Below, piece after piece: positions 9,701-12,700 of a stretch of DNA of 64,000 bases; the first letter of the stretch is position 1, and each line of letters starts with the position of its first letter. Origin of the DNA: Theristus sp. LFF4_11 (Eukaryota > Nematoda > Chromadorea > Monhysterida > Xyalidae); assembly GCA_030248135.1 (NCBI GenBank), contig JASANC010002087.1:62001-126000 (forward strand), given 5' to 3'. The notes beneath the pieces were generated by a model that did no database searches, was not told where the DNA came from, and saw only the letters and a list, made by a program, of their open reading frames with translations. Position numbers and translations under genes: made by a program.

Positions 9701-12700
9701 CAACCGCTTCTAGCCTACTGATTGGCCGAACATGAAATCTGATCAATTTCAAACATTCAAAAGTAACCAATCACCTTGCGACATCCACAAAAAACAACCA
9801 CAAACAAACCTCGACGGCGAATATCATCGTGATCAACATCGATGTTGCCGTCAACAGGTGCACCGTCGTTGACATGTCTTGCTCTTTTTCTTCCTCGACC
9901 GACCACTGGAATGAAAAAAAGGTGAATTGGAATCGGGAAAAGCAAGAGAGAAGGACATTGTACGCATGGAAAGCAAGCAGTCAGCACGACAAGCCCCGGG
10001 CTGTTCATCCCGGGCCTTGTTGTACTGACGAGCCTGGGGCCCTGGGTATTCGCTAATCGGGCGAAACCGCAAGAAACAGTGCATGAATTGACCGTTTGGC
10101 CGGCCACTTCTCATACACTGAGAAGACGCTGCTACTATTTGCTATTAAAGTATTTGCTATTAATGATTGGGTAGGGTATACAGCGCATGTTAGACGCGTT
10201 TTGCCACTGAACTTGTGTTCACGTGTTGGTGAAGTTTGTTTCAGCAGCAAAACTTTAGCTGGAACTTTAGTGGCAAGTTTCGTAGCAACTTTGACAGCAA
10301 CGCTATATTAGCAATCAGTGCACAGCGTTTCAAGCAGTTTTTTTCGCGATACACCAAGAAGAAAAAATGCAAAGACGCGCGCTGCGCACCAACCGGATGC
10401 CAGAGTGTCAACGAGTTGATCACCACCAGAGCGGTGAAGAACTGAGAAAATCGTTTCGACATCGTCAGCTCATAGATCGTTGTGCGCCATTTTGCGGATT
10501 CATCTGGAAGAAAGTAAGTGTCGGGTTTTGTTGAACGTGGGTGGCAAAGGCGCGTATACAATTTTAAAATCTACACCGTGAGAGAATGTGGCTAAAATTA
10601 CAAGTGGCTCAGCGAACGCGAATCAAATGTTGTCAGATAAAAATTTTAGCGACGTGCTCAACGTTTTAGAATTACTAATTTTATAAAAAGCGCTCCAGAT
10701 GACGGAACTAAATTATTGGATCAAAACAATGTTGACCCATTCGTTGACTGTTACTGTTTCACAGTGGTTACTCAATGGTTGACAACACCACACGCTACTA
10801 TGCAGCAACATGGCGGTCATTTTGTTTTGTTATACCCGGTTTCGGTGGAACCAGCAGTGGTTGCGCCATTTTCAATCGTGCCTTCAAATCACTCCAGCGT
10901 CTCTGGTCGACCGTCAGCAGAGCGGTGCCCTAAAAAGTTTTTTTTAAAAGAAATCGAAAAAAGTTTTTTCCTTTGCCGCTTCACACAGACACCCACGACG
11001 TTCCCCTGCGCAGTAATCTCTGATGGGAGAAGGGGGCAGGTTGCAAGTTGTTTTCGAAATTAGGCTCTGGCATCATTTTCTTGTCACTGAAAAAGTCTCG
11101 ATTTTACCTTCGTCTTTGCCTAATAAAATATGAAACCGTGTGAAACCGCATTAAACACGAATGCTGAGGAAAATATAAAAACGATGAAAATTGAAAAAAA
11201 CGAGCCCGATTTTCGCTGTAATTCGCGATCACAACGCCCACGAATAACGTCAAGCCGATCATGCAGCCAATGAACACGTAGACGTGCACGAATATGGCAG
11301 CCCACTGGAATGAAAAAAACTCGTGTGTAAAAAAACAAAAAGTGCGATGGTATTTTCTGGTAAAGGTAATGTGTGAAGATCGGGCACTCTGTTTATTAAA
11401 ACACCGTAGTGTTCCGCAATCACAAGCAAACACACAGGCGCTCATATGCGATAGCGCGTGTGTGGCCAGCTTTTGCGTGCGTGCCAGTGTGTTTGATTTG
11501 CGACTGCTTCATCACAAACAAAAGTGCGTGGTCTTCAAAAAAGCCATGTATTATCCGGCAAATTGTACCCAGGTGAAATTAGGCCCAATAGCAAGAAAAA
11601 ACGTTTCTATAAAATTGCCGAAAAATTAAATTGAACAGAGTAAATTGGATTGAATGAAAAAAAAAATCATGAAAACTGAAATTTCGAAAAAAATAAGTAA
11701 TTTTCAAAAAAAATCCGAACGGTTCCAAGCTGCTGCAGTATCACATCACGCACGACGTTCCATCCCTTGAACGACAGTATTTCAAACAGCGACAGAATGC
11801 CGTTGCCGATATGGTCGAAGTTGAAGAGGCTCGGATTAGTCCTGCAAGTGTGTTGTTAGACCCCAAGCTTTCTTTATCCATAAAATTAAATGTGGTGAAC
11901 CAATTGTTGAGTAGTTTGTCGTTCTATGATACAGTGGAATAGTCATTTTATGAGCGCAACAAATGATAATAAACTGATTACTGTGGTTTCCCAGGATCGG
12001 AAAATGATTTTAAACAATCGAGGTACCCGCCACATCACAAAAACGTGTTTAAAGTTAGGAACGCAAGAGAAATCCGTTGTTAGTTGCACGACACATGGAG
12101 CTGAATGGAAAGCGACACGACTGAAATTTTATAGCGACCCAAAACACGGATGCATTCAAAAACACGCACAATCAAGATTCAAAACTTTTAATTCACTGCC
12201 GCATCAAGATAAAAAAGAACAGCTACGTATGTATCAAACTGAATTTTGCACCGAAAGTAAAGCTCGAGAAAGAAAACCACACACACACGCACACACCCCA
12301 AGAGCAATCGCACACACGTTCGTTCTCAAGCGAACAAAAAACCAGCGCGTCTCACGTTCACGCGAAACACCGGATCCGTGAACGATCGTTTCACCGGACT
12401 AGACCGAACGAATCTACTGACGCGCGCATAGCCATCCACAGAAAGCATCTCAAACAGCGCAACCATGGTGACGGCGACGTTGTCGGCTGAGGCGATGCCG
12501 GGGTGGTCGTCCCTTTGAGTGCGGACGCGGATGCATGAACCAAAGGACATTGAACCAGACTAGGGGGGACACAACAACAACAACAACAACGGTGTGGCGG
12601 TTGGCCGGTGGTGCGGCTGCTGCCAATGGTTAATGAGGCAGAAAGATTTTCTGTAAGGAAGTCTTGTGAAAGGACTGCAGTCCATCTCGCTGATATATGC

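Follow-up and report, generated by a model that had tools for sequence, protein, structure and literature searches.

The question raised by this locus is whether a nematode can choose between two pores for its NALCN channel and, if so, what kind of channel the second of them would form. In the excerpts of Senatore et al. (2013; PMC3557258) on which we rely here, the selectivity filters of NALCN channels are given as EEEE, EDEE, EKEE and EEKE. According to the same excerpts, chelicerates and myriapods carry exon 31a (Glu) upstream of exon 31b (Lys), giving EEEE/EEKE, the two exons are barely different outside the filter residue, and nematodes (C. elegans) are among the groups apparently without such an alternative. 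The window analyzed in this work, i.e. a stretch of 64,000 nucleotides from Theristus sp. LFF4_11, contains a gene for which the first-pass annotation had proposed NALCN identity and a duplicated domain III pore exon, with Lys at the filter position in one version and Asp in the other. We asked whether the Asp exon is a working alternative, from where it could have come, and what its presence would mean for the ion preference of the channel.

A pair of domain III pore exons in a NALCN gene

On the minus strand of the window, from ~37.7 kb to 5.9 kb, 31 NALCN exon segments were recognized, the Asp exon counted. Their concatenation (1,266 residues, including the Lys exon but not the Asp exon) scored 1,316 bits against solved NALCN chains in a structure-chain search, compared with 251 for the best Cav chain, in good agreement with the identity originally proposed; as a four-domain sequence, it is related to NALCN above Cav and Nav channels. 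The recognized exons and the pore exons of the four domains are as follows:

5907..37657, minus strand: recognized NALCN coding exons (the true ends may lie beyond)
22543..22722, minus strand: domain I pore exon, SQEGW, Glu
19548..19685, minus strand: domain II pore exon, TQEGW, Glu
13101..13195, minus strand: domain III turret exon preceding the choice; phase 2 at its end (..VPRV + TG)
12395..12512, minus strand: exon a, domain III pore, LSVDGY, Asp at the filter and Tyr for Trp; EEDE
11721..11841, minus strand: exon b, domain III pore, LSFKGW, Lys at the filter; EEKE
11206..11304, minus strand: exon following the choice, S6 of domain III, joined in frame by both alternatives
7607..7738, minus strand: domain IV pore exon, TGEDW, Glu

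The coordinates, phases and peptides initially reported for the two domain III exons proved accurate, as did their lengths of 121 nt (exon b) and 118 nt (exon a). Both exons enter in phase 2 and exit in phase 0, both join the exons 13101-13195 and 11206-11304 in frame, and they encode peptides of 40 (exon a) and 41 residues (exon b), with a W codon completed across the upstream junction. The filter codons are AAG (11768-11766) for Lys and GAT (12436-12434) for Asp, and the lysine of exon b aligns with K1115 of mammalian NALCN. As domains I, II and IV all read Glu, the assignment of EEKE to one form and EEDE to the other was right: the Lys form agrees with the filter expected of NALCN (Glu in domains I, II and IV, Lys or Glu in domain III), from which the Asp form deviates in domain III. 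The two alternative pore exons of domain III are confirmed, together with the change of Trp to Tyr. No second domain II pore exon was found in the window or in the locus of a NALCN paralog on contig C3493, described below.

In the domain I part of the gene there is an intron of ~13 kb (23089-36047), in which tandem arrays occur along with long runs of G. At 24003-26165 and 51832-53251 of the window lie tandem arrays with units of 172/173 bp and 149 bp; by eye, the units of the two places are related and in opposite orientation.

Other NALCN copies and the ancestry of the acidic exon

A search of the whole genome (159 Mb, 3,744 contigs) returned 13 matches for the Lys form (E up to 10) and five for the Asp exon, which correspond to three NALCN loci; the Asp exon had matches better than E 0.02 only in the window and on contig C2930. 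The latter is collinear with the window contig (C1337), with 25 aligned pieces of at least 500 bases that are 84-94% identical (mean 91%), and therefore represents its haplotype or homeolog; the two copies of the Asp exon may be alleles of one animal. The third locus, C3493, is an older paralog, whose Lys exon differs from that of the window at 8 of 41 residues and whose other exons exhibit 41-89% protein identity to the window gene. Between the corresponding flanking exons and upstream of its Lys exon, it carries a Glu exon (30265-30124, minus strand; WSNPMHMHFDNVGNALLTLFQLLTVEGYNSFQNLLMHPDSIEQFAYPY, TVEGY at the filter), which by itself matches solved NALCN with E 4e-11 over the full chain, and with E 2e-5 when the domain III stretch is taken alone. 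In both paralogs the upstream exon precedes the Lys exon, covers the same domain III segment and has the same phases, which is the layout of 31a/31b. The filter residue is Asp in the window and C2930 and Glu in C3493, so that only C3493 shares the Glu of exon 31a; Tyr in place of Trp is common to the Asp exon and the Glu exon. Among the next-best matches in the genome for all three forms (Asp, Glu, Lys), the seven loci that were read, on both strands (L017, L018, L021, L022, L023, L047, L048), all encode calcium-channel-like pore loops with Glu-Gly-Trp, and Tyr is therefore no habit of the channels of this genome.

Two other gene families were recorded in the genome. Contig C1730 carries three rDNA matches (L052 and two more), one of which lies on the opposite strand to the other two. 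With a C. elegans major sperm protein as the query, the genome matches in eight places, seven of them at 62-64% identity over most of the length; the matches on C450, C373, C574 and C1066 form divergent pairs, minus then plus, ~0.4-0.5 kb apart, with one copy on C574 containing a stop and one on C1066 being partial. This family is not known outside nematodes, and its presence marks the genome as that of a nematode.

The score of the Asp exon was highest with the human exon (59), followed by the Glu exon of the paralog (54) and the two Lys exons (45 and 43), and in each of the four comparisons none of 20,000 shuffled Asp peptides attained the same score. We also ranked it among 3,280 exon-like open segments from the three loci (AG..GT bounds, same phase). 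With human NALCN as the reference, it follows immediately on the genuine Lys and Glu exons; with the Glu exon as the reference, domain IV pore segments score higher, and with the Lys exon of the paralog, pore segments of domains IV and II do. Against the Lys exon of the window the margin is small (45 for the Asp exon, 40 for the best of 2,421 non-channel segments), and a score so little above unrelated segments would suit a chance open frame; the position of exon a, its phase, conservation and counterpart in the paralog all speak against this explanation, which we consider extremely improbable. With the 40-residue exon alone as a query, no significant relative was found among solved structures (best E 0.42), and the seven matches listed are all Cav chains. 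The Asp and Lys exons are identical at 12 of 38 aligned residues and the Glu and Lys exons of the paralog at 15 of 41; the near-identity of exons a and b outside the filter residue, characteristic of 31a/31b, is not observed here. By sequence alone, the Asp exon is a diverged pore loop of a four-domain channel, and its assignment as the domain III alternative follows from position, phase, conservation and paralog taken together.

The ancestry of the acidic exon was analyzed with trees from a hand-set alignment of five exons (~40 columns). Trees that join the Asp exon to the Lys exon of the window were rejected by the AU test (0.043, 0.048), though not by the KH/SH tests (0.059-0.07). A tree without an Asp-Glu group was not rejected (AU 0.28), and in the unconstrained best tree the long Asp branch joins the human exon and not the Glu exon (branch lengths are 1.70 for the Asp exon and 0.89 for the Glu exon). 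With so few columns, these two results leave some room for a separate origin of the Asp and Glu upstream exons, in the two paralogs or at different times. Such an origin is opposed by the AU rejections mentioned above and by the eight columns that separate the two Lys exons, where the Asp exon matches its own neighbor at none and the other at one, as well as by the Val and Tyr around the filter, which are present in the Asp and Glu exons and absent from the human and Lys exons. On balance, we find separate origins unlikely. The Asp exon does not look like a recent copy of the Lys exon but resembles an old counterpart of exon 31a that evolves fast, and Asp was probably derived from Glu in a 31a-like exon. 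Most likely, the upstream exon predates the paralogs and the change to Asp came later; its greater age is indicated by the shared place, phase, acceptor and Val-acid-Gly-Tyr motif, and is not proven by the trees. These observations point to a greater age of the domain III exon pair within the moulting animals, or to more than one origin.

Conservation of exon a and putative control of the choice

Between the window and C2930, the Asp exon exhibits one synonymous change at 29 sites and no non-synonymous change at 88 sites; in the other 30 exon segments there are 100 synonymous changes at 879 sites and 13 non-synonymous changes at 2,931 sites, and the synonymous divergence of the gene is 11%. 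The probability of no change at 88 sites is 2e-5 at the synonymous rate of the gene, 0.004 at the rate of the intron between exons a and b, and 0.046 at the synonymous rate of the Asp exon itself. The mismatch rates of the Asp and Lys exons are 0.8% and 0, and those of the flanking exons 1.1% and 0 (exon 13101..13195 is identical at 31 of 31 residues); the three local introns have mismatch rates of 8.8%, 6.1% and 15.4%, the last of which is a rough value from a poor alignment with 983 gap columns. A 2-nt indel is located 24 nt outside the acceptor of exon a, and none within the exon; the frame is open and GT/AG are intact in both copies. Regulated exons are known to show few synonymous changes, and the four exons around the choice, a set picked after inspection of the table, have 2 synonymous changes at 98 sites versus 99 at 810 elsewhere (Fisher P 0.001), a suggestive sign that the exons are regulated.

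The intron next to exon a is also little changed: its last ~250 nt before the exon contain one mismatch and 27 gap columns relative to C2930, and the first ~57 nt after the exon have no mismatches. Part of the upstream stretch is a high-copy element:

12678..12820, no strand assigned: MITE-like element of ~143 bp with 26-nt inverted repeats, in the intron before exon a

It has 913 candidate places in the genome; among 40 that were scored, 38 lie outside the two NALCN loci, are 89-94% identical and match about the 12678..12820 stretch (query 9-162). The element also possesses internal 31-nt repeats.

The conservation of exon a could in part be due to a locally reduced rate of change or to gene conversion, and the little-changed flanking intron lends something to the possibility that exon a is a dying relic, which would have lost its use in the window gene, with drift giving rise to Asp and to a poor acceptor, while the paralog keeps a working Glu exon. 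The fast divergence of the exon (1.70 versus 0.89) and its acceptor, the weakest of all, would fit such decay. However, not one of the 88 non-synonymous sites has changed in a gene with 11% synonymous divergence, the frame and splice signals have persisted in both copies, and the Glu exon of the paralog likewise has a weak AAG acceptor. Neutral evolution of exon 12395-12512, which had been named at the outset as an observation that would count against a working exon, is argued against by this conservation, and we consider a relic improbable.

The exon lengths (118/121 nt in the window, 142/121 nt in C3493) are each a multiple of three plus one. In both paralogs exon a or exon b alone keeps the frame, and inclusion of both or neither leads to a frame shift and a stop, as is expected of mutually exclusive exons; in the window gene, joint inclusion places a stop one codon into the Lys exon. 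That stop would also suit an off-switch, in which exon a serves only to be included together with the Lys exon, so that the frame shifts and the mRNA decays. A poison exon, however, needs no channel-like frame, no particular phase and no filter acid, all of which have been kept in both copies and in the paralog, and an exon serving solely as a switch appears very improbable.

The sites and the candidate element that could govern the choice are:

12570..12589, minus strand: (TTG)n-TG run, 58-77 nt upstream of exon a
12513..12527, minus strand: exon a acceptor, cgtccgcactcaaag, with AAG instead of CAG
11715..11720, minus strand: exon b donor, ACC/gttcgg

The matrices for scoring splice sites were built from 80 introns that an automatic frame-and-consensus rule had inferred for the three loci; introns touching the Lys exon were left out. 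This set favors strong sites, by which the ranks of weak sites are somewhat exaggerated, several of its junctions are uncertain, and the effective number of introns is below 80, as C1337 nearly duplicates C2930. The acceptor of exon a scores below all 80 introns and that of the Glu exon in C3493 (..ctcgaaag) exceeds only three of them, with AAAG at the end of each; as for donors, that of the Asp exon exceeds 11 of the 80 introns and that of the Glu exon 16. For the downstream exon, the donors of the Lys exons score below all 80 introns both in the window and in C3493 (GCT/gtaaat), and the acceptors exceed 16 (window) and 7 (C3493) of the 80. The donor of exon 13101..13195 ranks 73 of 80. Complementary weak sites, kept in two paralogs, fit a putative regulated either/or choice. 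The mutually exclusive use postulated in the first-pass annotation has gained support from the frame penalty and from these sites, in both paralogs; the either/or use itself is still an inference.

The donor of exon 11206..11304, which follows the choice, is GC in the window copy (CGG/gctcgt, 11204-11205) and GT in C2930 and C3493, by which the window copy and C2930 may differ in splicing.

The (TTG)n-TG run is shorter in C2930 and absent in C3493; its resemblance to a UNC-75/CELF element is a speculative one. RBFOX-like 5-mers (GCATG, GCACG) are present in the intron that follows the Lys exon in each of the three loci (the closest 34-236 nt downstream) and were rejected as candidates, since 0.8 to 2.7 are expected by chance. 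Competing RNA structures are one known mechanism of mutually exclusive exons. A scan for them across the exon cluster gave eight pairs with short or imperfect arms, and no long pairing across the cluster was found.

Predicted channels and comparison with known systems

We conclude that the window contains a nematode NALCN gene with an alternative pair of domain III pore exons, one of which probably enters each mature mRNA, to give EEKE or EEDE. Both exons would be spliced in life: exon b (Lys) would produce an ordinary EEKE sodium-leak pore, and exon a (Asp, Tyr) an EEDE pore without the lysine, in which more divalent ions may be admitted or bound. The weak acceptor of exon a and the weak donor of exon b could serve as the handle of a regulated choice, with helper proteins promoting one junction or the other, and nonsense-mediated decay would remove the splicing failures. 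The Asp itself would have arisen from Glu in a 31a-type exon.

According to the sections of PMC7712781 used here, K1115 points into the pore in the structure of rat NALCN, and domain IV of the mammalian channel gives no acidic side chain to the high-field-strength layer. Because of the latter, the Asp form would present E, E and D in this layer. Replacement of lysine by an acid should remove a positive charge from the layer, and increased binding, block or passage of divalent ions would be a natural expectation. On the other hand, an engineered mammalian EEEE NALCN is said in the excerpts of PMC4033012 to inhibit the observed current, which is why a silent or sensor-like Asp isoform is possible as well; the same excerpts report that the fly EEEE form failed to restore the mutant phenotype. 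The worms can probably make leak channels of differing ion preference, as the predicted filters would imply. A more far-reaching interpretation, to which we give about an even chance, is that nematodes of this lineage have kept a second NALCN pore of ancient origin, which would predate the divergence of the two genes and would be strongly remodeled, with Tyr in place of the filter Trp; its Asp version in one gene would be, to the extent of the literature covered here, the first animal EEDE NALCN, a divalent-permeable or divalent-sensing leak channel selected by splicing in individual cells.

As read from the genome, exon a is a genuine alternative pore exon that has been conserved; exons of its kind are known, and nematodes were said to lack them. 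Alternative domain III pores of NALCN were previously ascribed to arachnids and centipedes and not to nematodes, and the statement that nematodes lack alternative NALCN pores has to be revised. For the question whether acidic NALCN pore isoforms conduct at all, the two paralogs, with their naturally occurring Lys, Glu and Asp exons, offer a ready-made comparison, suited to C. elegans nca mutants.

In the parts of the open-access literature covered here, we recognized no report of nematode alternative NALCN pores and found no animal NALCN with EEDE or an Asp/Tyr pore; the proposal that the Asp/Tyr version is a variant not described before agrees with this search, and its filter appears to be undescribed in NALCN. 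The excerpts of a 2025 survey of NALCN origins (PMC12412391) mention duplicated C. elegans NCA-1 and NCA-2, and those from its main text have no mention of EEKE, EEEE or splicing. As to a precedent for Tyr, the word is absent from the excerpts of PMC3557258, the only paper covered for this point. EEDE is given in the excerpts of PMC6259924 for non-animal four-domain channels only, and is absent from those of PMC4436565; both reviews repeat the exon 31 pattern.

Comparison with known systems begins with exons 31a/31b, which belong to the same gene and likewise encode the domain III pore from the distal turret to the filter, with the acidic exon upstream and the Lys exon downstream. Unlike there, exon a is only about one third identical to exon b, has Tyr for Trp, and carries Asp or Glu depending on the paralog. 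A choice between an acid and Lys is also offered by the tandem exons 15a/15b (EEEE/EKEE), described in the excerpts of PMC3557258 for molluscs, annelids, flatworms, echinoderms and hemichordates; these, however, belong to domain II and have a separate origin, and no second domain II exon was seen here. Asp at the domain III filter position is common to the present gene, to the T-type channel Cav3 (EEDD) and to the non-animal EEDE channels, as described in parts of PMC4436565 and PMC6259924, but in Cav3 it is followed by Gly-Trp (KDGW) and here by Gly-Tyr, and Cav3 and the non-animal channels are other families. Finally, the mutually exclusive exons 7a/7b of C. elegans unc-32 are, according to the excerpts of PMC3585155, chosen via UNC-75/CELF and RBFOX: exon 7a is skipped outside neurons, presumably through weak splice sites, and the neuronal choice is made via UNC-75 and RBFOX. 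As in unc-32, we observe a nematode exon pair with weak splice sites and a UUG-rich element; in contrast to unc-32, which is a different gene, the (TTG)n run is located upstream of exon a and not between the exons, and is absent in the paralog.
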